Of a DNA stretch of 64,000 nucleotides, positions 8,270 to 45,275 are shown one piece after another; position 1 is the stretch's first letter; every line of letters begins with the position of its first letter. The stretch lies in contig NZ_RZGZ01000002.1 in NCBI RefSeq assembly GCF_003990045.1, forward strand, positions 1,302,001 to 1,366,000. The letters run 5' to 3'. The notes beneath the pieces were generated by a model. It was not told the DNA's origin and did no database searches. It saw nothing but the letters and a program-made list of their open reading frames with translations. Source of the stretch: Labedella endophytica (GTDB lineage Bacteria; Actinomycetota; Actinomycetes; Actinomycetales; Microbacteriaceae). The position numbers and the translations under genes are program-made.

Positions 8270-11200
8270 TCAGGCCTGTGCGCGTCTCCGCATGATCAGC
8301 ACCGCGGCACCTGCCATGAGCAGCAAGAGCGCGAGGGCCGCGATCGGAGCGACCGTGGCACCGGTGACCGCGAGGCCGCCGTCATCATTGCCCGAACCGT
8401 CACCTGAGCCGTTGCCGGATCCGTCACCGGAGCCGCCATCGTCGCCGGGGGTGCCCGGCGTGCCCGGGTCGCCGTCGGCCGCGAGCACCGTGATGGTGTC
8501 CCAGCCGAGCACGGCGTTGTCGGCGTCAGTCACGGCGATGATGTGCTCGCCGGCCGTCGCGTCGAGCGGGATGGTCGCGGTGACCGTTCCCGCCGCCGAG
8601 ACCTGCTGCCAGTCGGCGATGAGGGTCGGAGCGGAGTACATCCACACCGCCACCCAGTCGCCGGCGTACTCGGTGCCGACGAAGGCCGTGATCTCGTCTC
8701 CCGGGTTCACCACGTCGGGGGCGACGGAGATGTCACCCTCGGCGTCGGCCGGCAGGTCGTCCGAGTCCACGCCGACGGGCGGCGTGGTGGGCTTACCCGG
8801 CTCCGGCTGCGGCTCCTCCGCGGCGTTCACCGAGACGGGGACGCGGAACGTCGTGCCCGACGGCTGCGCCGTGAGGACGATCTCGCTCGCCGCGGCCGCA
8901 TCGGCGGGCACCGTGAGCGACACCGAGGCCGCACCGTTCGCGACGGTGATCGGGTCGAACGAAGCATCCGTTCCGGCCCACTCCGCGGACAGCGAGGTGT
9001 TCACCGGGCTGCCGAGCGACGTGAGGTCGAGCGACGAGACGTCGAACGTGACCGTGGAGCCGGGCTCCACGACGTCGGTCGGCGCGTTCGTGACCGACAC
9101 GCTCTTGCGGTCGAACTCCGGGCTGAGGCCCGGGTTCGCCTCGAGGTAGGAGATCCACGCGTCGCGGTCGATGAGACCTGAATCGCGGGTGTCCTTGCCC
9201 TTCTCACCGAAGACCCGGAAGTTGTCGCCGCCCTGGAGGAGGAAGCTGAACGATCCGATCCGGTAGTCCTGGCTGGCGACGATCGGCTCGCCGTCGACCC
9301 AGATCCCCGTGATGCGGTCGCCCTGAGCACGGGCCGCGTCGTACGTGTACTCCACGTTGTCCGACAGGCCGAGCTTGAGGAACGGACGCGACGGGATCGT
9401 GCCGTCTGCGTTGGTCTGCCACTGCTGCTCGAGAGCCGCCTTGAAGTTGGCGCCCGTCAGGGTCGTCGTGTACAGGTTGTTGAGGAACGGGAGCACCGCG
9501 TTGGCCTCGGAATAGGTGATCGTGCCGTCCGGGGCGTAGATGAGCTCCCCGCGCAGACCTCCCGAGTTGACGACGCCGATCTCGGCGCCGCCTCGCTCGT
9601 CCGAGGACAGAATGGACTGCAGCGCGTCGGCGACGGTGTTGCCGAGCGTCGACTCGCTCGCGCGGTCGTCTCGCGTGCCGCCGGTCCACTTGCCGTCCAC
9701 GTAGGACCCGCCGCCGAAGGCGGTGGTGATGTCGGCCGTGACCGATCCCTTGGGCTGGTTGCCGATGACCGCTGCCTCGGCGAGTGCCGCGTCGACGATC
9801 GCCTTGACCTCCGCCACGCGGGGATACGTCGCGACGAGGACGTCGTCCGCCACCGTCGTGCGAGGAACGTTCTTCGCCACGTAGGACTGGACCTCGCCCG
9901 TCGCCGGGTCGAGGGTCAGGACCACGTTGCCGATGAACTCGCCGTAGTTGCCGGTCTGGAGCACCGGACGGGTCTCCCCCTCGACACCCGGGATGGGAGC
10001 GTCCCACGCGTACTGCTTGTGCGTGTGACCCGTGAAGATGACGTCGACGGCAGCCGAGGTCTTCGTGACGATGTCGGTGAACACGCCGTCCTCGGCGATC
10101 TCCTCCTCGAGCGTGGCGCCATCGGGCGTGCCCGCACCGGCTCCCTCGTGGTAGTTCGCGACGATCACGTCGGCCTCGCCGTTGGCGGCGTCACCGTCCG
10201 TGAGCTCGCCGGCCACACGGTTGACCGCCTCGACAGGGTCGCCGAAGTCGAGCGTCGCCACGTTCGCGGGCGACACGAGCGTCGGCGTCTCCTCCGTGAC
10301 GGTACCGATGAAGGCGACCGTGAGGCCGTCGATCTCCGCGAGCGTGTACTCCTGGAGCGCGGGGTTCGTGGTGCCCTTCTCGTAGACGTTGGCGCCCAGG
10401 TAGTCCCAGTCCGCCTCGGTCTCGATGCGGTCCGTGAGGTCAGCGAAGCCCTGGTCGAACTCGTGGTTGCCCACGGCGCTCGCGATGAGCTCGAGCGTGT
10501 TGAGCACGTCGATCGTGGGTTGGTCGTTCTGCGACGACGACGCGAAGACGGAAGCCCCCACGTTGTCGCCGGAGGAGACGAACATCGAGTTGTCGTCGCC
10601 GTACTCCGCCTTGAGCTGCTCGATGGTTCCCGCGAACTTCACCGTGTTGGCATCGATGCGACCGTGGAAGTCGTTGATGTCGATGAGGTTGAGTTCGACC
10701 GGCAGGGCCTCGGCGGAGTAGCCGACGAGGACCGGGTCGTGGTCGCTCGAGCGGTAGACGCTCTCGTCGTAGAAGTCCGTCGCGTTGTAGTTGTAGCGGC
10801 TGTACTCCTTCGCGATCGACTCGCCCGAGTTGATGTTCCAGATGTCGACGCCGGTGATCTTGGCGTCGGCGGCCGGGGAGGCGTAGATGTGGTCGAGCGA
10901 TCCGCTCTGCCCGCTGAACGAGTAGCTGTACTCACCCGTCTTGGACCCCTGGTCGACGTAGCCGGCATCCATGAGAACGACCGACGGGTCCTCCATCGTG
11001 TAGGCGTTGAAGTCGCCGATGAGGAAGACCTCGTCGGTGCCCAGCTCGGCCCGCAGGTCGGAGGAGAACTCGACAAGGGCCTCGGCCTGCGCGACGCGGG
11101 AGGCGTTGGAACCGCCCTGACCGTCGTTCTGGTCGGCGTCCGCGCCGGAGCCGGAGCCCTTGGACTTGAAGTGGTTGACGATGGCGATGAACGTGCCATC

Positions 11201-13246
11201 GGCGTCCGTGACCTGGAACTCCTGGGCGAGCGGCTGACGCGCGTTGTTGAACGCGGCGTCGAGCAGCACGCTCGAGTCGCCGACCGGCTGGACGTCCGCC
11301 TGCTTGTAGATGAACGCGTTGCGGATGACGTCCTGGGCGTCGACGGAGGGGAGCTCCGACGCGTCCGGTGAGGGCACGAACGCCCAGACGTCGCTGCCGG
11401 CGGCCTCGTTGAGGGCGTCGACGAGGATCGAGAGGGATTCGTCGCGGTCGGCGCCGAACTTCACGGAGTTCTCGATCTCCTCGAGGGAGACGACCTCGGC
11501 ACCGAGACCGTTGATCGCCGCGACGATCTTCGCCTCCTGGCGCTCGAGGTCTTCGTCCTCGGCCGCACCGCGCGCGTCGCAGCCCGAGTTGACCGTGACG
11601 GGGTCGCCGGCGCGGTCGGTGTAGAACGTGCAACCGTTCAGCTCGTCACCCGTGGTGGTGAAGTAGTTGAGCACGTTGAAGCTGGCGATCTGGATGTCGC
11701 CGCCCACCGCGTCGGGTGCCGTCGGGCGCACGTCGCTGAAGGCGGCGGGGAGCTCGTCCTCGGCCGTGAGCTGCGTGGTCGGCTGGAACTTCCAGGTGTT
11801 GTTGCGGTAGTCGATGATCACCGGCTCGGTGAACTCGACGGCCGATCCCACCGTGATGGAGTCGTCCTGCGTGAGGTACGGCAGCGGGATCGCCTTGTTG
11901 GTGTCGCCACCGAGGAAGTTGATCGAGGCACCGTCGTCGAGGGTCACACCGCGGGCAGCGTTCGCCGCGACGGCCGCCGTGTACTCGGCGGAACCGGGGC
12001 GCGCGATCTCGGTGGGGGTGATGAGCGGGGTGTCGCCTGCGGCGAGCCCGATCTCCGCGTACTGGTTGGTGGAGTACGTGTTGCTCACGGTGAAGGCGCC
12101 CTCGGGAGCGAGGAGCATGCCCTCGAGCGCTTCGCGCTGCGAGGCTTCCGTGGGGTACGAGACGGCGGCGGCGACCGGGGCCTCCGCAGCGGTGTCGAGC
12201 ACGGTGAGGCCCGCGGCCGTCGGCACGACGACCTGCGTGAGTCCGTTGAACTCGCTCGCCGTCCCCGTCACCTGGACGTGGTCGCCGACGGCGACGGATC
12301 CCACGGTGGCGGCGGAGTAGACGAAGACGGCGTCGGACGCGGTCTGCGCGCCGAGCTCGATGTCGCCGCCCGTTCCCGGCGTCTGGATGTAGTAGCCGTT
12401 GAAGCCGCCCGCGGGGTACGCGGCGGTGACGACGCCCGTGGTCGTCACGGTCTGACCCGCGAGGGGCGTCTCCGTGCCGGTGCCCTGGATGGCGGCGATC
12501 GTGATCGGCTCGCCCGGCTCGACGGGCTCCTCCGGCTCCGGCTCGCCCGGTTCCTCGGGCTCCTCCGGTGCGGTGCCCGCAGCATTCGTGGGCGTGGGGG
12601 CTCCCGCGACGAAGTCGGCGGCGTTGCTGTCCGTGTCGGCGCCGGCGGTGCGGGCGATCGACGTCGTCACGGACGCGGCGGGAGCGGCAGCCGTCTCGAA
12701 GGTTTTCGACGTGCCGTAGCCGACGAGGTCGACGATCGCGTCGTTGCCGACGATCGAACCCGTGGGCGGTGCGGTGAGCACCGTGGCCTGGTCGGCGAGG
12801 AAGATCGTGCCTCCCGCTCCCGCGAACGACATGTTGCCCGGCAGGGTGGCGTCGGCGGCGGGCAGAGCGGCTCCGGCCGAGCCGTTCGACGTGCCCTGCA
12901 CGAGGTAGTAGCCACCGGCTGCAACGGAGCCGCTGAGCGCGTAGACGCCCGAGGGGTTCGCATCGCCAGCGGCTGAGCGGTACTGGATCGACATCCCGTC
13001 GAGCGAGATGGCGGCGTCGGTGGGGTTGTACAGCTCCACGAACTTGTGGGTGTACGCAGCCCCGTTGCTGCCTCCGTTCAGGAAGGCCTCGCTGATGACG
13101 ACATCGCTGCCGTCGACGGCGGCTGATGCCGGGGCCGCCACCCCGATGAAGGGAGCCGCGACGAGCGCGCCCCCCAGAAGCGTCGCGAGACCGGCTCTGG
13201 CGGTGTGAATACCGCCCGGTCTCGTGGCTGATTGTGACAAGAGCAT
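8270..13246 (-). CDS. Cell-wall-anchored ExeM/NucH-type endonuclease fused to 5'-nucleotidase
   Basis: 1658 residues in one exported chain. Signal peptide about 1-42 (cut after APASA); lamin-tail-like domain about 47-220 (VVISEAFLNGG, KFVELYNPT); OB-fold region about 240-370; endonuclease/exonuclease/phosphatase domain about 515-840 (ASFNVLNY, SLEEIENS, LIGDFNAYT, SSDHDPV); metallophosphoesterase about 845-1130 (DINDFHGR, SSGDNVG, AVGNHEFDQG, FTGHTHKQY); 5'-nucleotidase C-domain about 1170-1380; Ig-like stalk about 1530-1600; Gly/Asp linker; LAVTG near 1620, hydrophobic helix, RRRAQA. It should cut DNA and free phosphate from nucleotides at the cell surface. GAGGAG touches the ATG; a TTG two codons on (13240) has better spacing, so the exact start is open. 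Confidence 0.93.
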   Translation of the reverse strand: MLLSQSATRPGGIHTARAGLATLLGGALVAAPFIGVAAPASAAVDGSDVVISEAFLNGGSNGAAYTHKFVELYNPTDAAISLDGMSIQYRSAAGDANPSGVYALSGSVAAGGYYLVQGTSNGSAGAALPAADATLPGNMSFAGAGGTIFLADQATVLTAPPTGSIVGNDAIVDLVGYGTSKTFETAAAPAASVTTSIARTAGADTDSNAADFVAGAPTPTNAAGTAPEEPEEPGEPEPEEPVEPGEPITIAAIQGTGTETPLAGQTVTTTGVVTAAYPAGGFNGYYIQTPGTGGDIELGAQTASDAVFVYSAATVGSVAVGDHVQVTGTASEFNGLTQVVVPTAAGLTVLDTAAEAPVAAAVSYPTEASQREALEGMLLAPEGAFTVSNTYSTNQYAEIGLAAGDTPLITPTEIARPGSAEYTAAVAANAARGVTLDDGASINFLGGDTNKAIPLPYLTQDDSITVGSAVEFTEPVIIDYRNNTWKFQPTTQLTAEDELPAAFSDVRPTAPDAVGGDIQIASFNVLNYFTTTGDELNGCTFYTDRAGDPVTVNSGCDARGAAEDEDLERQEAKIVAAINGLGAEVVSLEEIENSVKFGADRDESLSILVDALNEAAGSDVWAFVPSPDASELPSVDAQDVIRNAFIYKQADVQPVGDSSVLLDAAFNNARQPLAQEFQVTDADGTFIAIVNHFKSKGSGSGADADQNDGQGGSNASRVAQAEALVEFSSDLRAELGTDEVFLIGDFNAYTMEDPSVVLMDAGYVDQGSKTGEYSYSFSGQSGSLDHIYASPAADAKITGVDIWNINSGESIAKEYSRYNYNATDFYDESVYRSSDHDPVLVGYSAEALPVELNLIDINDFHGRIDANTVKFAGTIEQLKAEYGDDNSMFVSSGDNVGASVFASSSQNDQPTIDVLNTLELIASAVGNHEFDQGFADLTDRIETEADWDYLGANVYEKGTTNPALQEYTLAEIDGLTVAFIGTVTEETPTLVSPANVATLDFGDPVEAVNRVAGELTDGDAANGEADVIVANYHEGAGAGTPDGATLEEEIAEDGVFTDIVTKTSAAVDVIFTGHTHKQYAWDAPIPGVEGETRPVLQTGNYGEFIGNVVLTLDPATGEVQSYVAKNVPRTTVADDVLVATYPRVAEVKAIVDAALAEAAVIGNQPKGSVTADITTAFGGGSYVDGKWTGGTRDDRASESTLGNTVADALQSILSSDERGGAEIGVVNSGGLRGELIYAPDGTITYSEANAVLPFLNNLYTTTLTGANFKAALEQQWQTNADGTIPSRPFLKLGLSDNVEYTYDAARAQGDRITGIWVDGEPIVASQDYRIGSFSFLLQGGDNFRVFGEKGKDTRDSGLIDRDAWISYLEANPGLSPEFDRKSVSVTNAPTDVVEPGSTVTFDVSSLDLTSLGSPVNTSLSAEWAGTDASFDPITVANGAASVSLTVPADAAAASEIVLTAQPSGTTFRVPVSVNAAEEPQPEPGKPTTPPVGVDSDDLPADAEGDISVAPDVVNPGDEITAFVGTEYAGDWVAVWMYSAPTLIADWQQVSAAGTVTATIPLDATAGEHIIAVTDADNAVLGWDTITVLAADGDPGTPGTPGDDGGSGDGSGNGSGDGSGNDDGGLAVTGATVAPIAALALLLLMAGAAVLIMRRRAQA

Positions 13247-13423
13247 CTCCTCATAGAACGTCGCACGCGGACCCTTTCACGCTACGTGCGGCCTCCGACG
13301 TTCAGAAGGTCGGGAGGTTTCGAGCAGGTGAACTCTCGTGAAGTGAGAGCGGTCGGTTCGGTTGTCGGAGGATCATCCGAACGGTGGACGCGTCGTCCGA
13401 GCCGCACACGTAACGTCTGGAAG

Positions 13424-14230: not shown

Positions 14231-14240
14231 CCACTCCGCC

Positions 14241-14273
14241 CCGCACCCGCCGTGCACCCTCCGTTCACCCGAG
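14241..14273 (+). promoter_or_regulatory. PHO-box-like 11-bp direct repeats upstream of the PAP2 phosphatase
   Basis: Three abutting 11-bp units: CCGCACCCGCC (14241-14251), GTGCACCCTCC (14252-14262), GTTCACCCGAG (14263-14273). The last two fit the actinobacterial PhoP direct-repeat pattern G(G/T)TCAYYY. A TATCGT hexamer at 14301-14306 lies 27 bases downstream, putting the repeats at the -35 position expected for an activator. Confidence 0.65.
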
Positions 14274-14373
14274 GTCTCCGATCCGGACACCGCTCGTCCG
14301 TATCGTCGCTCCGGGCCAGAAGCCCACGTGGCCCCGCCCCGGGCCGCGACGCCGAACGAGGGACATCACCGAC

Positions 14374-16455
14374 GTGACGACATCCAGAACCCGGCGGATC
14401 TCCCGCCGCCGCTCCACGCTCACCGCGGGCGCCGCCGCCGCGGCGACCGCGGCCATCCTCCTGGGGGGCGCCGCCGTGCCCGTCCAGGCGGCCGAGGAGG
14501 ACGCGATCGCGCCCCGGCCCGGCTCTTATGGGTTCTATGTGGACACCTACCTGAACAACACGAGCGCCCTCGCGACGCCCGACACGAACCCGTCGATCGG
14601 CCTGCTCTCGCAGATGCTCGAGTACTGGCAGCCCGGCCCCACCTGGGACACCGGAACCGCCCTCGTGCCCGACGTACTCGACGCCAACATCGACACGAGT
14701 ATCGAGATCACGCGGACGCGCACCGACGCAGGAGCGACGGACGCGTACCTCATCGACCGGCGGAATCAGAACTACTCCGCGATCGACGGCCTCGGCCCGT
14801 ACGCGGACGCCTTCCGCTCCGCGAGCAACGCCGGCACGACGATCCCCGACGCGATCCCCGCCGACGCCACGAGCGTGAAGTACGACGACGCCGGCAACAG
14901 CAACGGAACGTGGGCCGACGCGGTCTCCGAGGTCGGTTCCGTCGTCTCCCTCGTGAACACGATCCGCGGCAGCTACGCCACGTCGAACAACGCGAAGAAC
15001 TACTACGGCTACCCGCGTCCGTTCCGCTGGAGCGAGGACGTCTCCGTCCTCCCCACCCTCGAGCCCGTGAAGAAGCCCGTCGAGGAGGCCGCGAGCGACA
15101 ACGGCTACCCGAGCGGCCACACCAACGCCGGCTACCTCGCGTCCTACGCCCTCGCCTACGCCTTCCCCGAGCAGTACGCCGACCTGCTGGCGAACGCCTC
15201 GGACATCGGCAACAGCCGGATCGTGGCCGGGATGCACTCCCCCGCCGACGTCATCGGCGGGCGGATCCTCGCGACAGCGATCGCCGCGGCCGTGCTGAAC
15301 GACCCGGCGTACGCCGCCCTCCTCGACGAGGCCCGCACGGAGGCGCTCGAGCTCCTCGCCGCGCAGCCGACCACGACCTCGACGGCCGCCGTGGACGAGG
15401 AGGCGACCATCGCCCGCCTCACCTACGGGCTGCCCCGCGTCGGCGACACGACGCTCCCCGTGGTCGTCCCGAAGGGCGCCGAGGCTCTCCTGCAGACGCG
15501 AATGCCGTACCTCTCCGCCGACCAGCGCCGCTGGGTCCTGCAGAGCACGGGCCTCGAGTCCGGCTACGCGCTCCTCGACGACGCCGAGGGCTGGGGCCGG
15601 TTGAACCTCGCGCTCGCGGTGCAGGGTTACGGCGCGTTCGACACCGACGTGGTCGTGGACATGGACGCGGCCGACGGCGGCTTCAGTGCCGCGGACGCGT
15701 GGATCAACGACATCGACGGCGACGGCTCGCTCACGAAGCAGGGCTCCGGCGTGCTCACGCTCTCCGGCGACAACACCTACCTCGGCGGCACGATCGTCGA
15801 CGGTGGCTCCCTCGTCGCGACGTCGGCGACGGCCCTGGGTGACGGTTCGGTCGCGGCCGCCGACGGCCTCCTCGCGGAGACGGTCGACGGAACGCTCGCG
15901 ATCACGGGCGACTACGCGCAGTCCGACGCAGGTGAGCTCTCGCTCACGGTCGAGGACGGCTCGCCGCTCGCGATCGCCGGCGAGGCCACCTTCGGCGGGC
16001 GGCTCTCCGTCGCCTTCGCCGAGGGTGCCGCTCCCGCGGACGACGTCGTGCTCGCCACCTACGGCTCGCTCGCGGCGTCCCGCTTCACGTCGGTCGACGT
16101 CGACAGCCTGCCCGCCGGCTACGAGCCCGAGCTGCAGTACCGCGACGGCGCGCTCCACCTCGTGAACGCCGCGGCCGAGGGTGCCGAGCCCCAGCCGGGC
16201 GATGGCGGCGGCGACGACGGCGAGCCCGGAACCGGCACCCCCGGTGAGGGCGAGCCGGGCAACGGAGACGGTGGGAACGACGCGGGCGAGGGATCGGACG
16301 ACGGTACCGGATCGGGCGACGCCGAGGCGGGCGATGACCTCGCCGTCACGGGCGCGACCGACCCGTCCGTGCTCATCCTCGGCGCGGGAACGCTGCTCGT
16401 CGCGGGAGCCGTCGTGCTCCTCATCGCACGCCGACGTCGCAGCGGAGACGTGTAG
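14374..16455 (+). CDS. Cell-wall-anchored PAP2-family acid phosphatase
   Basis: 693 residues from GTG 14374, with GAGGG 11 bases upstream. Twin-arginine-like basic start (SRTRRISRRRS) and signal peptide to about 41 (VPVQA). The PAP2 catalytic set is visible: KNYYGYPRPF, PSGHTNAGY and SRIVAGMHSPADVIGG, the form seen in class A acid phosphatases. After about residue 440 comes an autotransporter-associated beta-strand motif (GSGVLTLSGDNTYLGGTIVDGGSL), then a Gly/Glu/Pro linker, LAVTG near 660, a hydrophobic helix and RRRRSGDV. It should hydrolyse phosphomonoesters on the cell wall. PHO-like repeats precede it and a strong hairpin follows. Confidence 0.92.
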   Translation: MTTSRTRRISRRRSTLTAGAAAAATAAILLGGAAVPVQAAEEDAIAPRPGSYGFYVDTYLNNTSALATPDTNPSIGLLSQMLEYWQPGPTWDTGTALVPDVLDANIDTSIEITRTRTDAGATDAYLIDRRNQNYSAIDGLGPYADAFRSASNAGTTIPDAIPADATSVKYDDAGNSNGTWADAVSEVGSVVSLVNTIRGSYATSNNAKNYYGYPRPFRWSEDVSVLPTLEPVKKPVEEAASDNGYPSGHTNAGYLASYALAYAFPEQYADLLANASDIGNSRIVAGMHSPADVIGGRILATAIAAAVLNDPAYAALLDEARTEALELLAAQPTTTSTAAVDEEATIARLTYGLPRVGDTTLPVVVPKGAEALLQTRMPYLSADQRRWVLQSTGLESGYALLDDAEGWGRLNLALAVQGYGAFDTDVVVDMDAADGGFSAADAWINDIDGDGSLTKQGSGVLTLSGDNTYLGGTIVDGGSLVATSATALGDGSVAAADGLLAETVDGTLAITGDYAQSDAGELSLTVEDGSPLAIAGEATFGGRLSVAFAEGAAPADDVVLATYGSLAASRFTSVDVDSLPAGYEPELQYRDGALHLVNAAAEGAEPQPGDGGGDDGEPGTGTPGEGEPGNGDGGNDAGEGSDDGTGSGDAEAGDDLAVTGATDPSVLILGAGTLLVAGAVVLLIARRRRSGDV

Positions 16456-16470
16456 TCGTCACGCACGCGT

Positions 16471-16510
16471 GACAGCGGGGGCGGGCCGACGACGGCCCGC
16501 CCCCGCTGTC
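16471..16510 (+). terminator. Terminator of the PAP2 phosphatase gene
   Basis: A 17-bp GC stem (16471-16487 with 16494-16510; left arm starts GACAGCGGGGGCGGG) around a 6-base loop, 15 bp after the stop codon. Confidence 0.9.
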
Positions 16511-16587
16511 GGTTCCGGGCATTCTCCCGCTCCGTGGCCGGCCGTCCACAGGTGCGGAATTCGAGAGCATCACCTGCATCGGCGAGC

Positions 16588-16606
16588 TATACAATCGCAT
16601 ATACAA
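16588..16606 (+). promoter_or_regulatory. TATACAA direct repeats before vapBC
   Basis: TATACAA occurs at 16588-16594 and 16600-16606, 12 bp apart, in an otherwise GC-rich region and 16-35 bp before the vapB start. They could be the -10 region and an autoregulatory operator of the toxin-antitoxin operon. Confidence 0.5.
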
Positions 16607-19790: not shown

Positions 19791-19791
19791 A

Positions 19792-35600: not shown

Positions 35601-35748
35601 CGACGGCTCGCCCGGCGAGGGCGTGGCGGTGACCGGCGCGAACGATGCGCTGCCCGTGATCGGCCTCGCGAGTGCGCTCCTGCTGTTCGGAGCCTGCCTC
35701 GTCGTCGCGAAGCGGATGCGACGCACGGCGGACGACATGATCGAGTAG
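32626..35748 (+). CDS. Cell-wall-anchored M14 family zinc carboxypeptidase
   Basis: 1040 residues from GTG 32626, with AGAAG 5 bases upstream. Signal peptide to about 29 (PAATAAP). M14 zinc site: HGNEWE (His and Glu near 160-163), then His in FVDIHGY near 249, and the catalytic Glu in NTVELPLG near 347. After the peptidase comes a long region (about 440-880) with two Rossmann-like parts. The C-terminus has the shared stalk domain (LFSEPVGLG, LHRVAVEDAAGALIGWDDITVLA), a GEPGEGEPG linker, VAVTG near 1002, a hydrophobic helix and RMRR. It should trim peptides at the surface. Ig-stalk sharing links it to the nuclease, GH92 and phosphoesterase. Confidence 0.92.
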   Translation: MLTRVVAGASSVIVAVSAVFLAAPAATAAPGILDAPTIPIVRTDGGVAFPTSYPVQPTLTEVPADATDASIARGALPFADIAPALNDLMDESDYVSSQVIGQSEQGRDLYLVTVTSPETAEETAQQTAWRDAIKHAPTAASQDAAIADGYKLPIWFNANIHGNEWEGTDATMNYIEQLVDTSEDPEVAELLDTTRLYFTVTANPDGRFNGTRATANGYDPNRDFITNATNTTTALRDITGLIQPTYFVDIHGYTGILQVEPCGPPHGENYEYDLFLPHAYSAALAVEEAVAEADIPGNTYDDGAGNATLTNTGKILIPYRDIREGWDDWPPIFAPQYVAYQGAITNTVELPLGRTNDPATNQANSIVDTEVAEVVIDSIIEYVVDNRDPLLSNQMEIFERGLNGAEQTPIPADVAPEDLAPGVPTEWTDIWDETDIYNATFPRAYVIPVDGSQRSRSDAEQLVEQLLVNDVEVTRATEDFTADGTTYAAGTFLVDMHQPLRGLANVLLADGTDISDRISSMYDISAWSLALLWGADVIAVGDTTDPALSVTVEDVATVDLGGSVADGGPYLELEPAGTAEWQAITALLDAGVALSQTADGTVVLGKDAASRAAAEEAASLFGVDFTATDGLALRDETTTSLRSLAVGYTTTDDRDVLLKLGFDEPVLVSAALVTSGAVDLSTLDVLFLGGNLSFTGDNAAGAEKLTAYLAAGGDVVARGSGGATFANANGLAQVTATSGTSGSNGIVRVDTPEGSVFGADTADTAFIYPATWFAGLGEGVTVEQSYASDVFVAGHWAQSDGRSPADAAGQASAISSETDAGSRFFLFGTSPTFRNHPVGQFGDIASALYWSAGPGTAVVPPITEEDLTEETKTGVSVPEQATAGDTITVTVDEAFAGQELTTTLFSEPVGLGTRTVSATGTFEVTIPADTTAELHRVAVEDAAGALIGWDDITVLAVEVPGEEPGEGEPGTGEPGEGEPGAGEPGAEAPGGDDGSPGEGVAVTGANDALPVIGLASALLLFGACLVVAKRMRRTADDMIE

Positions 35749-36481: not shown

Positions 36482-39400
36482 TCAGCGCGTGCCGAGGCCG
36501 CGGCGGCGCGCGATCACGAGGGTCGCTCCGAGAGCCATCAGGAGGATCGCCAGCACGCCGGCCGCCCATCCGACCGCTCCGCCGGTGACGGCCAGGCCAC
36601 CGTCGTCCTCCCCTGCTGCGAGCGTGAACTCCGCCCATCCCATCAGCTCACCCGCGTCGTCGAGCACGGCGATGCGGTGCTCGCCGGCCGTGACGGACGC
36701 CGGGAGCGTGACGGTCGCGCTGCCGTCGGCATCGGCCTCCACCCACCCGAGAGCCGTCGGCTCCGAGTAGACGTAGACGTAGTGCCAGCTGGAGGGGTCG
36801 AGCCCGCCGAGCGTCGCGATACGCCCCGAGACCGACACCGTGATGCGATCCCGCAGCGCCTCGGGTAGGTCGTCACCCGTCTCCGCCGGTGCCGACGGAG
36901 CGAACGAGGGGGCCCCGGGGGTCGTCGGGTCGGTCGGGTCCGTGGGGTCGGTCGGCGGATCGGTGGGATCGACCGGCGGGTCGGTCGGATCGACCGGCGG
37001 GTCGGTCGGATCCACGGGCGGGTCCGTGGGATCCACGGGCGGGTCGGTCGGATCCACGGGCGGGTCCGTGGGATCCGTCGGTTCCACCAGCCCGGCGAGC
37101 GCGTCGGTGAGCCCGTCGAACGCGCCGACGTAGGTCTCGTACGACGCGTCCTCGGCGACGGCGCGCGCCGTCGCGAGCGCCGACTCGAGCACCGCGACGC
37201 TCTCCGGCGTGTAGAGCGACGAGTCGACGGCCTCGGCCTCCGCGATGAGCAGCGGGAGCTGCCGCACGACCTTCCACTCGAGCTGATCGGCCGCGGCCGT
37301 GAGGATGCGCAGCGCCGCATCGGCCTCGTACTGCGTGGACTCTGCTCGCTCCACGACACTCTGCGCCGCGGCGAGAGCACGACGGAACGCCGCGAAGTCG
37401 ATCGCGATGTAGCGCTCCTCCTGCTCGACGATCGTCTTCGCGTCGGCGATGGCTGCGCGCAGCTCCGTGAAGTCCACGGGCGTCGTCTCCCCCTCGGCGG
37501 GGGCGAACTCGAACCAGTCGAGGTTGGAGACGTACTGGTACGACTGACCCGCGACGGGATCGGAGTGCATGACGACGACGAGCGTGTGCTCGCCCGTCAC
37601 CGGTGCGTCCAGGTCGACCGTCGTGGTCACGTAGTTGCCCCAGCCGCCGGTCTTCGGGAGGGCGACCGCCCCGACCATGTTCGCCGGCGTCACCTCGTCG
37701 AGGTAGAACTCGAGTCGGGGGTTCGCGCCCACCCGTTCGTCGCGCGTGGAGGTACGCACCGTGAGAGTGCTCAGCTCGCCGGCACCGAAGTCCACGTCCG
37801 CGTAGGTCAGGCGCCCGCCGTCGTAGGTGCCGCCGACGTTGCCCGACGGGCTCGCGCCCTCGGCCACGAGCGTGCCGCCGCTCGAGTCCGTGAAGCCCTC
37901 CGCCTGGATGCGTACGGGGTCGATCGGCGCGGCCTCGGTCGCCCCGAGGAGCGTGACCCGATCGATGGAGATGGCGCCCGTATCGAGCCGGAGGCTGAGG
38001 GTGGGGTCCCAGCTCAGGAGCTGCTCGGGGGTCACGGCAGAGGTGAGGACACCCGAGCGGAGCTTCCGCCAGGAGCCGTCCTCCTCCATCCAGGAGGTGA
38101 TCACGCCGTCGGCGACGACGGTCGCGAACCGGTCGCCGGGATTCCACTGAACTCCCGTGAGGGAACCGGCACCGCTGTCCTTGCCCTCGCCACCGACCCA
38201 GAAGTCCATCCCGGTCTCGGCGCGCGTGTTGTTGAACCAGCTGTGCGCCCGGTTCGTGGGCCCGTCGGTGAGCCCGACGAAGAGGCTGTCCTCGGCCGCT
38301 TTCGTCCCGGCGAAGCTCTCGGGCTCCACGACGAGGGCGAAGTCCTCCCCGCCACTCACGGGAAGGGCGATGTGGCTGAAGCGGCGCCCGTCGGCCGTCG
38401 CGGTGAGGGTGCCGGACGCCGTGTCCACCGAGATATCCGCGGACGGCTCGCTCGAGTCGCCGAACACGGTGTACTCGGACGAGCGGTCCGTCGAGAAGTC
38501 GTCGTCGAAGAGCACCTCGCCGTACAGCGTGTCGCCGAGGACGAGATCCTCTGACGTGTCCGCGATCGCGAGCGCCGCAGCGGCCTTCGTCAGGGTCGTG
38601 AAGGCGCCCTTGAGCTGCTCGTCCGTCGCCGCCGCGTCGTCCAGGACGGCCTTCGCCGACTCCCGCGCCGCGCTGAACGCGGCGAACGAGGTCTCGGTGT
38701 ACGCGCCCTCCACGACGAGCTCGGCCTCCTCGACCAGGGCGGCGAGCTTCGCCCGCCACTCCTGGTCGACGGCGAGCGTGAGCGTGCCGAGGCCGGAGAC
38801 GCCGTCCCCGCGGAGCTCGGTCGCGAGCACCCCCGAGAGTGCGGCGTCGGTGAACGCGAGCGCGAACGCGGCTCGCTGCGATGCACCGAGCGATCCCGTC
38901 AGCCGCAGGTCGATCGTGGTGTCGTCGCGCTTCACGGCGCTCGCGGTCACCCCGGAGGGCAGTCCCGGCACGGTGAGCGCACCGTCGGCGACGAGGTCGC
39001 GCCCGTTCGCTCCGGCGAAGGTCGCGCCGCTCAAGGAGAGCGCGACCGATGTGTCCACGGTGCCGTCGGCCGCGGCCGTAAGCGTCGTGCGCTCCGCCGT
39101 GAGGGTGGCCCCGTCGAACGTGACCTTGAACGAGAACTCGCGCGCACCGGCCGACGGCTTCGTGCGGAAGGTGGAGTCCCCGACGCTCAGCTCGAGGTCG
39201 TCGATGCTGTCGAGCGTGCCGTGCTCCGCCGCCTGGCCCGCGAGCGACAGCGTCACGCTGCGGTCGCCGGTGCGTGTCGCGACGAGGCTCAATCCCTCGG
39301 GCAGGTTCTCGGCCGAGATCGCGCCGTCACCGGTGAGATCGTCGCCGTTCTTCCCCGCGAACGCGCCGTTGGCGAGCGTCAGCGAGATCTCGTTCCCGAC

Positions 39401-41860
39401 GGACCCGTCCCCCGCCTCGGCCTCGGTGAACTCACGCGAGGATACGGAGACGGCGCTCGTCCGGTCGTACGTCGAGCTCGGGAGGACGTCGCTCAGCGAG
39501 GACGACGCGACGCCGTCCTCGGCCCAGTCGGAGGCCTCGTCGCCCATCTGGAACGCCAGCTCCCCGCCGGCGGTGAGCTGGTCGTAGGTGATCCACGTGC
39601 GCTCGAAGTCCTGCCCGTTGAGGGCGGCGGACTGGATGAAGTAGTCGTCGGGCGAGACGCCGTCCGCGCTGATGTCGAACGTGCGGCCGGACTCGTAGTT
39701 GATCTGGACGTTCTCGAAGAAGGGCGTGCCGATCTGGTATTCGTCCGAACCCGCCTGCACCGGGTAGAGGCCGAGCGCCGCCGCGACGAACGTGGCCGAC
39801 ATCGCGCCGGTGTCGTTGTCCTGCGTGGGGAGGAAGCCCTGCGGGGAGTTCTGGTAGACCTTCGTCTTGATCGGCGGCCGGAACTCGCCGCCGCTCGTGG
39901 GGTACTCGCCCGTGGATCCGGTGGCGATGTACCGGTTCCACGTCTCCTTCGTGTAGAGGTTGCGCACCCACTCCTGCGTCTTCGACGGTTCCCCGACGTA
40001 GTTGAAGAGGTACGGCACCTGCAGGTCGGTCTCGTTGGCGCTCGAGAACAGCATTCGCGATCCATCGTCCGGAGCCTGCTCACCGAACATGAAGCTGAGC
40101 GCCGCGAGGGTCTCGTCCTGCCCGCCCATGAGGTCGATCATGCCGCCCATGTCACTCGCGACGGTCCAGTTGTACTGCCAGAGCGTGCCCTGGTAGACGT
40201 TGCCCGCTTCGAACTGCTCCGGGTTCGCATTCACCCAGGCGCCGTTGCCGTCCTTCGGGAACACGAGGCCCACGGTGTCGCCGTCAGCGACGGTCACCGC
40301 GTCGTCCTTGAACAGGTTGGTCCAGTTCGCGGCCCGCAGTCGGAAGCCCTGCGCCTCCTCGGTCTTGCCGAGGGCGTCGGCGATCGTCGCGAGCGCCGTG
40401 TCGTCGTAGGCAGTCCCGAGGGTGTCGTCGACCTCGTTCGCGATGTAACCGCGCTTCACGTTGTCGGGGTTGCCGTAGCCGCCCTGCGATTGCGACACGA
40501 GCGCCGGCCAGGCCTCCTCGAGTCCGCTCAGATCGGCGCCCTTCGCGACCGCATCGGCGATCACGACGGCGGCACGCTCGAAGCGCACGGTCGGCACGGA
40601 GTGGACCACGCCGGACAGCGAGCTCGCGCCGCTGGTCGTGAAGGAGCCGTAGAGGTCGACGAGCGACTGCGCCATGTCCCGGAAGACCTCGGGGTAGCCG
40701 ATCGCGAGCACCTCGAACTTGCGGAAGTCGTCCCACGTGCCCCAGCCGTCGTAGTGCGTGTAGCCGTCGGCCTCGGAGATCTCGCCGTCGAGCCCGCGGT
40801 ACGTCCCGCTCGTGCTCGTGGCGTTCACCGGCTGACCGAAGAGGCGATAGAGGTGCGTGTAGAACAGCTTCTGGAGCTCGCCGTCGGGGTCGCTCGTCTC
40901 CGACGCGGTCACGGCGAGGCGGCCGAGGATCTCGTTCCAGTCGGCCTTCGTGTCCGCACGCACGTCGTCGAATCCACGATCGCCCATCTCGGCGGCGAGG
41001 TCGATCTTCGCCTGTGCGGCGCTGATCGGGGAGATCGCGACCTCGAGGCCCAGCTGCTCGCCCGCGGCCACGTCGAAGTCGAGGATCGCGCCGAGGTTCG
41101 TGCCGTCCTGGTGCGATTCGGTGCCGAGCGCTCCGGAGGCACCCCACGTGCGCGTGTTCGACGGCGCGGTGGTGGTCTCGACGTAGTAGTACATCTCGTA
41201 GTCGTAGCCGTTGAAGTGGCCGCCGATCTCCCCCGCGAGCGCGACGCGGCCGTCCGCGAGCGTCGTGACGTCGATGGAGGCGGCGTTGCGGCGGGTGAAG
41301 TTGTTGCGCAGATCGACGACGAGCGAGGCCGTGCCGGCCTCCGGGAAGGTGAAGCGGTCCTGGCCGGTGCGCACGTCGGTGGTCGCCTCGGCGAGGATGG
41401 GCCCCCTCGCGGTCTCGAGTTCCACGCCGTAGTAGCCGGGCTCGGCGTCCTCGGCGTCGTGGCTGTAGTCCTTCGCGTAGGAGGACGTCGTCGGCACGCT
41501 CGAGTAGCTCGTGTAGGTCGGCACCACGAGCAGGTCGCCGCCCCCGCCCGAGCCGCCGACGCCGTTGAGGTTGGTGTGGGTGAAGCCGGCGATCTGGTCC
41601 TCGGCGTAGTCGTAACCGCTGTGGGAGCGGCCCGGCGTGGTCATCGGGTTGATCTTGACGATCGAGCTGGGCGCCTCGGCGCCGGGCAGGTCCTGCCCGA
41701 AGTCGTCCTCCGTCGACACGAACGTGTTGACGAGCTCGGCGTAGTCGATGGCCGCGGGGGGCGGGGCCGCGGTGGCCGCCGTGGGAGCGAAGCCCGAGCC
41801 GAGGATCGCGGCGAGCAGTCCTCCGGCGAGGAGGCGGCGGGACAGGGATGACGTCGGCAT
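36482..41860 (-). CDS. Cell-wall-anchored GH92 family alpha-mannosidase
   Basis: 1792 residues from ATG 41860, with GGAGAG 7 bases upstream. Signal peptide to about 33. GH92 domains about 38-780: LVNTFVSTEDDFGQDLPGAEAP, GYDYAEDQIAGFTHTNLNGVG, WGTWDDFR, SSANETDLQVPYLFNYVGEP and QDNDTGAMSATFVAAALGLYP with the catalytic-site Asp. Then beta-sandwich repeats, FIVAR-like helical modules, a concanavalin-like region, a CBM6-like domain near 1315-1460 (VRIQAEGF, RVGANPRLEFYLDE), DPTDPPV linker, stalk domain, LAVTG and RRRGLGTR. GH92 enzymes are calcium-dependent exo-alpha-mannosidases acting on N-glycans or mannans. It shares CBM, linker and stalk with the next gene. Confidence 0.93.
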   Translation of the reverse strand: MPTSSLSRRLLAGGLLAAILGSGFAPTAATAAPPPAAIDYAELVNTFVSTEDDFGQDLPGAEAPSSIVKINPMTTPGRSHSGYDYAEDQIAGFTHTNLNGVGGSGGGGDLLVVPTYTSYSSVPTTSSYAKDYSHDAEDAEPGYYGVELETARGPILAEATTDVRTGQDRFTFPEAGTASLVVDLRNNFTRRNAASIDVTTLADGRVALAGEIGGHFNGYDYEMYYYVETTTAPSNTRTWGASGALGTESHQDGTNLGAILDFDVAAGEQLGLEVAISPISAAQAKIDLAAEMGDRGFDDVRADTKADWNEILGRLAVTASETSDPDGELQKLFYTHLYRLFGQPVNATSTSGTYRGLDGEISEADGYTHYDGWGTWDDFRKFEVLAIGYPEVFRDMAQSLVDLYGSFTTSGASSLSGVVHSVPTVRFERAAVVIADAVAKGADLSGLEEAWPALVSQSQGGYGNPDNVKRGYIANEVDDTLGTAYDDTALATIADALGKTEEAQGFRLRAANWTNLFKDDAVTVADGDTVGLVFPKDGNGAWVNANPEQFEAGNVYQGTLWQYNWTVASDMGGMIDLMGGQDETLAALSFMFGEQAPDDGSRMLFSSANETDLQVPYLFNYVGEPSKTQEWVRNLYTKETWNRYIATGSTGEYPTSGGEFRPPIKTKVYQNSPQGFLPTQDNDTGAMSATFVAAALGLYPVQAGSDEYQIGTPFFENVQINYESGRTFDISADGVSPDDYFIQSAALNGQDFERTWITYDQLTAGGELAFQMGDEASDWAEDGVASSSLSDVLPSSTYDRTSAVSVSSREFTEAEAGDGSVGNEISLTLANGAFAGKNGDDLTGDGAISAENLPEGLSLVATRTGDRSVTLSLAGQAAEHGTLDSIDDLELSVGDSTFRTKPSAGAREFSFKVTFDGATLTAERTTLTAAADGTVDTSVALSLSGATFAGANGRDLVADGALTVPGLPSGVTASAVKRDDTTIDLRLTGSLGASQRAAFALAFTDAALSGVLATELRGDGVSGLGTLTLAVDQEWRAKLAALVEEAELVVEGAYTETSFAAFSAARESAKAVLDDAAATDEQLKGAFTTLTKAAAALAIADTSEDLVLGDTLYGEVLFDDDFSTDRSSEYTVFGDSSEPSADISVDTASGTLTATADGRRFSHIALPVSGGEDFALVVEPESFAGTKAAEDSLFVGLTDGPTNRAHSWFNNTRAETGMDFWVGGEGKDSGAGSLTGVQWNPGDRFATVVADGVITSWMEEDGSWRKLRSGVLTSAVTPEQLLSWDPTLSLRLDTGAISIDRVTLLGATEAAPIDPVRIQAEGFTDSSGGTLVAEGASPSGNVGGTYDGGRLTYADVDFGAGELSTLTVRTSTRDERVGANPRLEFYLDEVTPANMVGAVALPKTGGWGNYVTTTVDLDAPVTGEHTLVVVMHSDPVAGQSYQYVSNLDWFEFAPAEGETTPVDFTELRAAIADAKTIVEQEERYIAIDFAAFRRALAAAQSVVERAESTQYEADAALRILTAAADQLEWKVVRQLPLLIAEAEAVDSSLYTPESVAVLESALATARAVAEDASYETYVGAFDGLTDALAGLVEPTDPTDPPVDPTDPPVDPTDPPVDPTDPPVDPTDPPVDPTDPPTDPTDPTDPTTPGAPSFAPSAPAETGDDLPEALRDRITVSVSGRIATLGGLDPSSWHYVYVYSEPTALGWVEADADGSATVTLPASVTAGEHRIAVLDDAGELMGWAEFTLAAGEDDGGLAVTGGAVGWAAGVLAILLMALGATLVIARRRGLGTR
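36921..37089. repeat. In-frame 21-bp tandem repeats encoding DPTDPPV (GH92)
   Basis: About eight units coding for DPTDPPV, then degenerate DPTDPT, in the linker before the stalk domain. The same linker is encoded at 42424-42612 in the neighbouring gene. Confidence 0.9.
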
Positions 41861-41926
41861 GCGCGGGGGCTCTCCGGAGGCGTGGGTGGGGCGCGGGGTG
41901 GAGCAGAAAGGGTGGAACAGAGGGGG

Positions 41927-41960
41927 CCGTCGGGGACCGGCGCGAGCCGGTCCCCGACGG
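41927..41960 (-). terminator. Terminator of the surface metallophosphoesterase gene
   Basis: CCGTCGGGGACCGG (41927-41940) and CCGGTCCCCGACGG (41947-41960) form a 14-bp stem with a 6-base loop, 10 bp past the stop. It separates the phosphoesterase from the downstream GH92 gene. Confidence 0.9.
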
Positions 41961-41969
41961 CTTACAGCG

Positions 41970-44900
41970 TCAGCTCTCGGTGACGCGGTTCCGGCGGGCC
42001 AGCAGCAGGGCGCCGCCACCGGCGAGCAGGAGCGCGCCGAGTGCGATCGAGGCCCACGCGGAGGCCGCGTCCGAGCCCGTCACGGCGAGGCCGTCCGGGT
42101 CGGACGGGTCCGCCGCGGCGAGGACGAAGTCGTCCCAGCCCACGAGGGTGCCCGCGTCGTCGAGCACGGCGGCTCGGTGCGCACCGGCCGTCAGACCGCT
42201 CGGGAGGGTGGCACTCGCGCCGCCGCTCGCATCCGCCTGGACCCAGCCGAGTCCGATCGGCGACGAGTAGACGTACACGTAGTACCACTCGCCGGCTTCG
42301 AGCCCGTCGATGTTCACGGTGGAGCCCGAGACCGTCACGGTCACGCGGTCACGCAGCTCGTCCGGCAGGTCCGAGCCGTCGGCCGAGGGCGGGGACGGAG
42401 TGAAGGACGGCTGGGGCATGCCCGGCTCCGACGGATCGGTCGGCGGGTTCGTCGGGTCCACCGGCGGGTCCGTCGGCTCGACCGGCGGGTCCGTCGGGTC
42501 CACCGGCGGGTCCGTCGGGTCCACCGGAGGATCGGTCGGGTCCACGGGCGGGTCGGTCGGGTCCACGGGCGGGTCCGTCGGGTCCACCGGCGGGTCCGTC
42601 GGGTCCGTGCCCGGCTCGACGACCGTGACGATGCGCTCGACCGTCGTGACGTTGCCGCGAGCGTCCGACACCGTGTACGTCAGCGTGTAATCGCCGGCCG
42701 TCGCGGTGTCGACCGAACCGGCGACCTCGATCTCCTCGGTGAGGTCGCCGTCGACGTTGTCCGTCGCGGTGACGCCCTCGCGGGGGTCGAACTCGGTGTC
42801 CTGCTGGATCTCGCCGTCTTCGGGCACCGTCAGCTCGGGGGCTGCGTCCTTGGTCAGAGAGACCTCGTCCACGACGCTGTTCACCGGCATCTCGGAGCCG
42901 TTCTGCTGGCTGCGCAGCGTGCGCACCGAGATCTCGTCGTCCGTGACCTCGAGGACGGTGTAGTTGCGCACCTTCTCCTGGTTGATGACGGAGGCCCACC
43001 ACGCGGTGGGGTTCTCCGTGTTGTAGTACTTCGAGCCGCTCGAGGAGTTGGCGGTCACGTACATGACCTCGCCGTCCTTCGCTTCGACCTTGACCGCGGC
43101 CGGGACCTCGTTCTCGTCGGCCTTCTGGCCGTTCTTGATGAGGTAGGTGCGGGCGTAGTTGTGGTCGTGGCCCATGAGGACCAGGTCGATGCCGAGGTCG
43201 GAGATCTTCTCCGGCATCGTGCTGCGGCGGTCGAGCACGTCGCCGTCGTCCTGGTGCGGTCCCACCGAGTAGATGGAGTGGTGGAACGCCACGGCCTTCC
43301 ACTTGGCGTTCGCACCCTGCTCGGCGATCACCCGATCCATCCAGGCGTAGTGCGAGGTGTAGTCGCGGCTGTTGGAGTTGATGTTGAGGAACAGCACGTC
43401 CTTGTAGATGAACCAGTAGTCGCCGCCCGACGAGGTGGCCGAACCGGCGCCGGCCGTGAGGTCCTCGTTCGGAGCGTTGAAGTGCTGCTCGTAGGCCTTG
43501 GAGCCCACGTCGTGGTTCCCGTTGTTCGCCACGAAGGGCAGCTCGCGCAGGTGGTCCGACTGGAGGAAGAGCTCGTACTGCGACTCGCTCGAGGCGTTCT
43601 CGACCTGGTCTCCGGACGAGTACAGCAGTTCCGCGTCCGGGTAGGTCTGGGTCGCGAGGTCGAGCGTGTCCTGCCAGCCGGCGGCGTCTCTCGCCGCGTC
43701 TCCCGACGCTCCGAGCTGCGGGTCTCCGAAGAAGAAGAACGAGAAGTCACCGGAGAATTCCTGGGTGCGGAACGTGTAGACGTCCGACCAGCCCATGTCG
43801 TCGCTGCCGACGCGGTAGGAGTACTCGGTGTTCTCCGAGAGGCCGTCGAGGGTCACGTCGCGGAAGAACTCGCCGCTCGTGGTGCCGCCGGTCTTGCTCG
43901 TCTCGATCGTGCGGGCGGAGTCCGGGAACTCACCGTCGACGACCTCGGAGGCCGTCGCGAGCTGCGCGGTCTGGGGCACGTCCACGTCCGAGTACCAGGC
44001 GAGCGTGCGCTCGGCCTCGGTCGCGCCGACGCCGAGAACGAGGTCGGAGATCGTCGCTTCCGTGGGCGCCGGGGTCGGCACCACGGGCACGAGAGCCTGC
44101 AGGTCCAGGTAGTTGTCGCTGCTCGTCTCGCGGTCCTGATAGAGCGCGATGGCGATGGTGTTCTCGCCCTCCTGGAGAACATCGGCGGGAACGGTGAAGG
44201 TGCTCGTCACGGGGTTTCCACCGCTGGCACCGGCGTAGGTGAGGTTCTGGTTGGCCGCACCGTTCACGCGGTCGTCGACGAAGCCGGCGACCTTCTGACC
44301 GTTGACGTACACGCGCACGGCGTCGTCGTAGGTGATCGTGCCCTGCAGGGACTCGATCTGGCCGAGGTCGCTCTCCGAGACGTCGAAGTCGTTACGGAAG
44401 TGGTAGGTCTCGATCGTGTTCGAGGAACCGGTCTTCGCGTACTGGATCAGCGTTTTGGCGACGAAGCCGCCGCCGAGGTCCGCGGCGCCGCGCTTCGAGC
44501 CGAAGGAACCGACGCCGTTCTTCCACGCGGAATCATCGAAGTCCGCCGTCGTCCACGAGAGCGTGCCATCGCCGGACGGGTCGGTGCCGTTGTCCGAGTA
44601 CGACCAGGCGTCGGCCGTCGTGAGGTACGACGCGGGGAGCGGCGCCGTCGTGAACTCGAAGTAGTCGAAGTTGCCGGCGAACGGGTGGCCGGAATCGGCG
44701 GTCACGCTCATCACGACGATGAGCGTGTGCTCACCGGAGAGCTCGCTCGCGAGGTCGACCGTGGTCGTGTTGTACGCCTGCCAGTTGTCGCCGGTGACCG
44801 GAAGGGCCGCGGTGGCGATCTTATTGGCGTCGGTCTTCTCGTCGATGTAGAAGTCGAGCGACGGGTTCGCGCCGACGCGGTTCGAGTTGTTGACGTAGCG

Positions 44901-45275
44901 GACCGTCAGCGACGACAGGGGAGCCGAGCCGAAGTCGACCGTGTCGTACGTGAGCTCGCCCCCGTTCCAGGTGCCGCCGACGTTGCCGAGCGATGCTCCC
45001 GTGGAGTCGCTCGACGTCTCCTTCTTCAGGCCGTTTCCGTTGTCGCCCGTGTAGTCCTCCGCCTGGACGCGCACCGGCTCGGCGGCGATGCCCACCGCGG
45101 CGGCGTTCACGCCCTGCGTGGCGGCGGCGGCCGGCAGGCTCGCCAGTGCGGCGCCTCCGGCGGTGAGGGAGAGGAGCAGGAGACCGGCGATGCCGCGTCT
45201 CGCGATCCTGTTCGTGCGTGGCTCGGCCGGGGAGTCCGGCGTCGCGTGGGTAGTCAGCAAGATGTCACAAACCAA
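41970..45275 (-). CDS. Cell-wall-anchored metallophosphoesterase (purple acid phosphatase-like)
   Basis: 1101 residues. Start uncertain: TTG 45275 is the first possible codon after a stop, TTG 45260 another; neither has a clear ribosome site. Signal peptide to about 53 (PAAAATQG). CBM6-like domain about 65-215; beta-sandwich about 220-395; fibronectin-like domain about 405-510; metallophosphoesterase about 512-790 with FFGDPQLG, YSSGDQVEN, NNGNHDVG, AFHHS and MGHDHNYART; DUF5011-like Ig domain (EFDPREGVTATDNVDGDL); DPTDPPV linker; stalk domain; LAVTG near 1070; RRNRVTES. It should free phosphate at the surface. PHO-like repeats lie upstream. Confidence 0.92.
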   Translation of the reverse strand: MVCDILLTTHATPDSPAEPRTNRIARRGIAGLLLLSLTAGGAALASLPAAAATQGVNAAAVGIAAEPVRVQAEDYTGDNGNGLKKETSSDSTGASLGNVGGTWNGGELTYDTVDFGSAPLSSLTVRYVNNSNRVGANPSLDFYIDEKTDANKIATAALPVTGDNWQAYNTTTVDLASELSGEHTLIVVMSVTADSGHPFAGNFDYFEFTTAPLPASYLTTADAWSYSDNGTDPSGDGTLSWTTADFDDSAWKNGVGSFGSKRGAADLGGGFVAKTLIQYAKTGSSNTIETYHFRNDFDVSESDLGQIESLQGTITYDDAVRVYVNGQKVAGFVDDRVNGAANQNLTYAGASGGNPVTSTFTVPADVLQEGENTIAIALYQDRETSSDNYLDLQALVPVVPTPAPTEATISDLVLGVGATEAERTLAWYSDVDVPQTAQLATASEVVDGEFPDSARTIETSKTGGTTSGEFFRDVTLDGLSENTEYSYRVGSDDMGWSDVYTFRTQEFSGDFSFFFFGDPQLGASGDAARDAAGWQDTLDLATQTYPDAELLYSSGDQVENASSESQYELFLQSDHLRELPFVANNGNHDVGSKAYEQHFNAPNEDLTAGAGSATSSGGDYWFIYKDVLFLNINSNSRDYTSHYAWMDRVIAEQGANAKWKAVAFHHSIYSVGPHQDDGDVLDRRSTMPEKISDLGIDLVLMGHDHNYARTYLIKNGQKADENEVPAAVKVEAKDGEVMYVTANSSSGSKYYNTENPTAWWASVINQEKVRNYTVLEVTDDEISVRTLRSQQNGSEMPVNSVVDEVSLTKDAAPELTVPEDGEIQQDTEFDPREGVTATDNVDGDLTEEIEVAGSVDTATAGDYTLTYTVSDARGNVTTVERIVTVVEPGTDPTDPPVDPTDPPVDPTDPPVDPTDPPVDPTDPPVDPTDPPVEPTDPPVDPTNPPTDPSEPGMPQPSFTPSPPSADGSDLPDELRDRVTVTVSGSTVNIDGLEAGEWYYVYVYSSPIGLGWVQADASGGASATLPSGLTAGAHRAAVLDDAGTLVGWDDFVLAAADPSDPDGLAVTGSDAASAWASIALGALLLAGGGALLLARRNRVTES
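42424..42612. repeat. In-frame 21-bp tandem repeats encoding DPTDPPV (metallophosphoesterase)
   Basis: About nine units coding for DPTDPPV with EPTDPPV and DPTNPPT variants. Longer than, but clearly the same as, the linker at 36921-37089. Confidence 0.9.

Follow-up and report, generated by a model that had tools for sequence, protein, structure and literature searches.

The 64,000-nucleotide stretch of Labedella endophytica DNA analyzed here (the window, G000:C2:1302001-1366000 of a 3.67 Mb genome) contains five large open reading frames (ORFs) whose products end, on inspection of the sequence, in a LAxTG-type pentapeptide followed by a hydrophobic segment and then a basic tail. The pentapeptide is LAVTG in four of the proteins, a nuclease-nucleotidase fusion (Nuc), a PAP2 phosphatase, a GH92 glycosidase, and a metallophosphoesterase (MPE), and VAVTG in the fifth, an M14 carboxypeptidase. 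A domain of approximately 85 residues, the stalk, is positioned directly N-terminal of the anchor in Nuc, M14, GH92, and MPE; PAP2 has no stalk. Judging from profile searches, the stalk is a real, widespread, mostly single-copy, and anchor-proximal domain of the family Microbacteriaceae. The observation of five such proteins stands and is no product of chance. An earlier sequence-only reading of the window described the five termini and the pre-anchor domain shared by four proteins; all five C-termini were found, and a profile built from the four stalks recovers Nuc, M14, GH92, and MPE, and not PAP2.

Pairing of the stalk with sorting signals

The profile detects in the L. endophytica genome the four stalks of the window, two additional ones (E-values of 2.4e-26 and 8.3e-13), and one weak match (E-value of 0.083). 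One additional stalk belongs to a choice-of-anchor M protein with a LAVTG terminus; the other is internal in a TIGR03773-type protein. Both are encoded in an anchored-repeat ABC transporter cluster (L046, G000:C1:664500-684400; TIGR03772, 753.9 bits) that specifies three large surface proteins of the choice-of-anchor M kind; two of them are stalk-bearing, one internally. Surface proteins of such clusters (TIGR03769, TIGR03772, TIGR03773) contain choice-of-anchor M domains, whereas the window proteins have hydrolase heads. Proteins with a LAxTG-type C-terminal signal number at least 19 in the genome, 14 from 15 regions around matches to the NCBI model NF058582 and the five of the window; two regular-expression hits in spurious frames were removed, and weaker NF058582 matches elsewhere were left out. 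Only five of these 19 carry the stalk, which therefore does not define the LAxTG class.

Within the family, the stalk was detected in 100 of 150 genomes in a profile scan with E-values up to 0.001. In the relatives with the best scores, an LxxTG-type signal terminates 62 of 66 stalk ORFs, compared to two of 539 other six-frame ORFs of at least 250 residues, a control set that includes many non-genes. The 66 ORFs come from the 60 loci with the top-scoring family matches, weaker matches being left out, and the signal was defined as [L/V/I/M/F]xxTG followed by a helix and a basic tail. One of the two signal-bearing controls is a GH92 orthologue lacking the stalk. A pattern search in named genomes, which yielded 60 loci, gave a similar picture, with the signal present in 61 of 71 stalk ORFs, one more being cut by a contig end, and in seven of 1286 controls. 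The two sets overlap; together with the copies of L. endophytica they comprise 139 proteins scoring at least 50 bits, of which 123 are distinct. The second residue of the signal in the 62 ORFs is alanine in 39, proline in 10, serine in nine, and another residue in four. The pairing with LAxTG anticipated for relatives by the sequence-only reading is thus borne out as a pairing, but not as one limited to LAxTG, since LPxTG and LSxTG signals are used too.

The stalk is separated from the C-terminus by 3–90 residues (median of 55, 66-ORF set). There is usually one stalk per protein, proximal to the anchor; a few proteins of the named set have two. Of the 60 named loci, 56 have titles that give Microbacteriaceae or genera of this family, and the rest are from two Aeromicrobium, one Micropruina, and one unclassified actinomycete. 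Across the phylum, the stalk is present in at least 12 of 396 genomes at E-values up to 1e-6, with at most 13 candidates scored per genome, and strong matches occur only in the family itself and in genome G363.

The head identities of all five window proteins agree with Pfam and NCBIfam scans. Nuc (8270–13246, minus strand, 1658 residues) is composed of a lamin-tail domain (LTD), an ExeM/NucH nuclease, and a 5′-nucleotidase, followed by the stalk (8480–8749) and the LAVTG signal (8273–8374). It scores 588.7 bits with NF033681, passing the cut-off of 300, and 112.6 bits with PF02872. Nuc shares its nuclease head with ExeM/NucH nucleases (NF033681), and its second head resembles LPXTG 5′-nucleotidases (NF047875 and NF040549), but with scores of 123 and 84.6 against cut-offs of 1050; unlike both, it fuses a nuclease and a nucleotidase with a stalk and LAVTG. 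The PAP2 phosphatase (14374–16455, plus strand; signal 16339–16452) contains one autotransporter-type PATR repeat (PF12951, 38.4 bits). PATR repeats are known chiefly from Gram-negative autotransporters. The M14 carboxypeptidase (32626–35748, plus strand) has its stalk at 35227–35493 and its VAVTG signal at 35623–35745. The GH92 glycosidase (36482–41860, minus strand; TIGR01180, 304.8 bits) contains CBM6 and FIVAR domains, a stalk (36614–36877), and a LAVTG signal (36485–36595). MPE (41970–45275, minus strand) is formed by a CBM6 domain, a purple-acid-phosphatase-type metallophosphoesterase, an Ig-like (immunoglobulin-like) domain, the stalk (42114–42377), and the LAVTG signal (41973–42089). 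Each stalk and each signal is on the strand of its gene. The ORF-tool frames of GH92 and PAP2 overrun the likely starts, which were set by eye at 41860 and 14374, and putative N-terminal signal peptides were read by eye in the translations.

The LAVTG anchor is already covered by NF058582 (Microco_LAVTG, 'LAVTG motif-containing sortase-dependent surface protein'). This model shares the C-terminal LAVTG domain with the window proteins but spans the 34-residue anchor only, not the stalk. When the genome is scanned, its 27-bit cut-off is passed by all window proteins (30.5–34.4 bits) except M14 (24.4 bits). In the whole-protein scan, Nuc (27) and PAP2 (27.4) reach the cut-off, with MPE (25.8), GH92 (25), and M14 (19.8) under it.

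As the sequence-only reading stated, there is no sortase gene in the window: the four sortase-domain matches of the genome all lie outside. One is of class E, located on another contig (G000:C8:44193-44843) and scoring 238 bits with NF033747 (cut-off 160), and the other three best fit class F, one of them over the cut-off of 166. The nearest, 4.2 kb upstream of the window (G000:C2:1297435-1297845; L005:13154-13852), is lipoprotein-like and class F-type, with 110.6 bits against the NF033748 cut-off of 166; downstream of it is, by eye, an apparent anti-sigma factor gene. LAXTG is the signal recognized by class E sortases, according to PMC5148588. A genome without a class E sortase would have refuted the sequence-only reading, which is not the case here. 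The five proteins are plausible candidates for class E sortase cargo. They resemble known class E substrates, such as the long chaplins of Streptomyces coelicolor, in their non-canonical LAxTG, helix, and basic tail and in the genomic class E sortase. They differ from chaplins in being large hydrolases, in carrying a stalk ahead of the signal in all but PAP2, and in the VAVTG of M14. A class E sortase is encoded in 136 of the 150 family genomes (E-values up to 1e-20). Stalk and sortase co-occur in 96 genomes, with 4 having the stalk only, 40 the sortase only, and 10 neither (Fisher p of 0.0026, from two lists crossed by hand and uncorrected for genome size, completeness, and kinship). This co-occurrence is weak evidence, because 136 of the 150 genomes have the sortase anyway. 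Judging from a literature search, little seems to have been published on sortases in Microbacteriaceae, and the stalk combined with LxxTG could provide a sequence marker for wall-displayed enzymes across this large family.

Sequence of the stalk and its catalytic heads

Stalks of the window share 38–42% pairwise identity, except for those of GH92 and MPE, which are 61% identical, suggesting a shared origin of this neighboring pair. The conserved core reads approximately G-x-x-x-T ... VG ... AG ... W ... S-x-P ... G ... P ... G-x-HR-x-x-V-x-DA-x-G-x-x-GW. One glycine and one tryptophan are invariant in 52 copies, and S-x-P, G-x-HR, V-x-DA-x-G, and the last glycine are conserved in 90% or more. 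The motif proposed by the sequence-only reading holds as a loose pattern but not to the letter: AGEHR is literal only in GH92 (AGEHI in Nuc, AGAHR in MPE, and AELHR in M14), and of the four stalks only those of GH92 and MPE have the first GW.

Searches of Pfam and NCBIfam with stalk copies revealed no dedicated model. At E-values up to 1, the 52 copies gave weak matches to Ig-like or β-sandwich models of Pfam: MalQ_N in 31 copies, Big_3_5 in 27, and Big_6 in nine. Among 20 singly scanned copies, one (L192, 27.7 bits) passes the 24.1-bit cut-off of MalQ_N (PF21226), and 19 pass no Pfam cut-off; none reaches the 35.5-bit cut-off of Big_3_5 (PF16640), the best scoring 23.9. The Nuc stalk of the window has no MalQ_N match at E-values up to 1, and the remaining 31 copies are represented by the summary of a joint scan. 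A sequence search of the PDB gave weak matches, the best (E-value of 5.3e-4) to a surface glycan-binding protein over profile positions 50–90 of 91. On the basis of the weak library matches, the single MalQ_N pass, and the sequence pattern, we read the stalk as a probable Ig-like domain for which neither Pfam nor NCBIfam has a separate model; it would merit an entry there. The head-stalk-surface layout is shared with fibrillar adhesins with stalk domains (PMC8286594 and PMC9210967), from which the window proteins differ in having a single short stalk domain before the anchor and enzymes as heads.

The heads of stalk proteins are mainly hydrolases and often of phosphorus type, which supports the previously proposed scavenging set. 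Pfam domains in 68 stalk proteins (the 66 relative ORFs and two of the window, each domain counted separately, with the 25 commonest families per scan) include LTD in 31, Metallophos in 28, 5_nucleotid_C in 21, and Exo_endo_phos in 16. M14, GH92, GH95, GH3, GH26, esterase, and ThuA heads are found in few or single proteins. The commonest heads, lamin-tail, metallophosphoesterase, 5′-nucleotidase, and nuclease, thus point to phosphorus scavenging. Stalk-less anchored proteins of L. endophytica also include phytase-like, metallophosphoesterase, and endonuclease/phosphatase heads, so that phosphorus-type heads characterize the anchored set and not only the stalk.

The notion of interchangeable heads on one stalk proved too strong. 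The nearest stalk has the same head cluster in 84 of 98 cases, compared to a mean of 27 and a maximum of 39 with shuffled labels, and free head swapping as the main mode is rejected on this ground. The test used clusters of three or more members, one of which holds 64 of the 123 distinct proteins. At least four of the 14 mismatches come from short or split frames (three from L201_7917 and one from L091_5057), and true swaps are therefore fewer. The stalk is separable and can be acquired or dropped as a whole, since the GH92 orthologue of the relative G108 has kept the LAVTG anchor without the stalk. In Microbacterium marinilacus, PAP2, LTD, and phytase-like domains are combined with a stalk in one protein (L184:4458-8363), near the start of whose gene there is a PHO-box-like repeat; these parts are separate in the L. 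endophytica genome.

PHO-box repeats and the proposed role of the proteins

GTTCACC is the PHO-box unit of S. coelicolor, according to PMC4415409. We searched for its direct repeat in the Streptomyces form, GTTCACC-N4-GTTCACC, with 7-nucleotide units 11 nucleotides apart. A repeat with one mismatch is located at 14252–14269 (plus strand), 122 nucleotides upstream of the likely PAP2 start; an equally good match occurs in 0.05% of random 380-base stretches sampled from retrieved parts of the same genome. In G108, a one-mismatch repeat with a different spacer precedes the PAP2 match at about the same distance. No such repeat was found before the more distant PAP2 homologue in G004. With a repeat upstream that also occurs in a relative, the PAP2 gene has the sequence hallmark of the PHO regulon and may be controlled by PhoP. 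Shared PHO regulation of the five window genes was rejected, as the box was sought before each and is present only before PAP2. A GTTCACC unit near the Nuc start recurs in three Labedella-genus genomes but has four mismatches over the dimer and is not claimed as a box, and a reverse-oriented repeat with three mismatches before the MPE gene has no counterpart in G108 or in the same-genus genome G033. Over the full window, eight sites with up to three mismatches were counted versus 5.2 expected, no clear excess.

The genome contains 45 PHO-box-like sites with up to two mismatches, versus nine for the reversed pattern. Among the 30 sites whose surroundings were inspected, one precedes a pstS gene (TIGR00975, 190.7 bits, under the cut-off of 205, E-value of 3.2e-56), one neighbors a Pit-type transporter gene of the opposite strand, and two that overlap in tandem lie near the guessed start of a stalk-less phytase-like LAVTG gene. 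Among 115 distinct stalk genes of relatives, 16 have a dimer with up to two mismatches near the frame start, compared to none of the 115 for each of four control patterns, and 15 of the 16 dimers are on the sense strand. Nine of these 16 genes were scanned for domains: seven encode a phytase-like, nucleotidase, or metallophosphoesterase domain, and in two only LTD exceeds the cut-off. These repeats suggest a possible link between sortase cargo and phosphate starvation.

The sequence anatomy of the proteins, the presence of a sortase gene, the stalk-anchor pairing, the composition of the heads, and the PHO-box repeats are what the analysis shows directly. We propose that the secreted multi-domain hydrolases are cut at (L/V)AVTG by the single clear class E sortase and then linked to peptidoglycan, presumably covalently. 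The stalk would form an Ig-like β-sandwich spacer between the catalytic head and the anchor, holding the head clear of the wall. Together, the proteins would constitute a cell-bound scavenging surface, chiefly for phosphorus, with predicted activities towards DNA, nucleotides, phosphate esters, and phytate-like substrates, and with accessory enzymes acting on mannosides and peptides. Some of the wall-anchored proteins would be induced by phosphate starvation through PhoP acting on PHO boxes. As a whole, we regard this sortase-anchored phosphorus-scavenging explanation as probable. Better-known actinobacteria rely on freely secreted phosphatases. It is a more tentative idea, possible but short of probable, that Microbacteriaceae use a dedicated anchor-proximal domain to mark sortase-displayed exoenzymes, with a PhoP-controlled subset as a wall-bound phosphorus-harvesting surface.

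Several observations weigh against the proposed explanation. The internal stalk copy of L. endophytica is 338 residues from the C-terminus, and the C-terminal membrane segment of its protein lacks LxxTG. A recognized signal is missing in four of the 66 and nine of the 71 stalk ORFs of the two sets. Neither the M14 nor the GH92 head is a phosphorus enzyme. PHO-box dimers at up to two mismatches are missing from all four stalk genes of the window (the best have four, five, five, and three), and most of the 30 inspected sites of the genome are near genes for which no phosphate role was apparent. Microbacterium accounts for eight of the 16 stalk genes with PHO boxes, and these eight are alike in length and repeat, which reduces the independent cases to about nine.

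Alternatively, the stalk may simply be a lineage within the widespread Ig-like repeats of bacteria, its pairing with the anchor reflecting that such repeats are general in wall proteins. Stalks weakly match many Ig-like and β-sandwich models, and the family scan gave many weaker, partial matches to the profile. However, the stalk is single-copy in nearly all proteins, is proximal to the anchor, and has its own C-terminal signature, and its pairing with the anchor far exceeds that of the control ORFs, which were not restricted to Ig-bearing wall proteins; we consider this alternative a real contender, though not the one to be expected. It is unlikely that the stalk is a functional module, for instance a binder of peptidoglycan or of a different wall polymer, or an aid to the sortase in handling the signal, instead of a passive spacer. 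The few residues conserved across distant heads in the 52 copies and the nearly fixed position beside the signal speak for such a module, but 14 of the 19 proteins identified in the genome with a LAxTG-type signal have no stalk, the GH92 protein of G108 keeps its anchor without one, an internal copy lies far from the C-terminus, and conserved glycine, tryptophan, and hydrophobic positions would be expected of an Ig-like core anyway. A model in which the C-terminal helix keeps the proteins in the membrane without covalent anchoring, or in which they are released, appears least likely, and we give it little credence: some stalk proteins, such as L173 and L177 of Aeromicrobium, do end in a helix and basic tail without LxxTG, but LAXTG is the class E signal (PMC5148588) and the genome encodes a class E sortase.

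Arrangement of the genes in the window

Five of the at least 19 LAxTG-type genes of the genome lie inside 37 kb, with a probability of approximately 5e-4 under random placement, the span having been chosen post hoc. A single operon of the five genes is not claimed, since genes of other functions intervene. The 109-nucleotide gap between MPE and GH92 contains, by eye, a long and strong inverted repeat, rich in G+C and lacking a clear T run (41927–41960), and even this pair may therefore not share one transcript. The gene order MPE, GH92, M14 is conserved in three Labedella-genus relatives; the MPE gene of Labedella phragmitis (L091:3402-6853) appears as two overlapping frames. Three tandem PHO-box-like units (three and two mismatches) are located at 46189–46217, approximately 65 nucleotides upstream of an ORF at 46280 that encodes a membrane protein resembling, by eye, HupE/UreJ.

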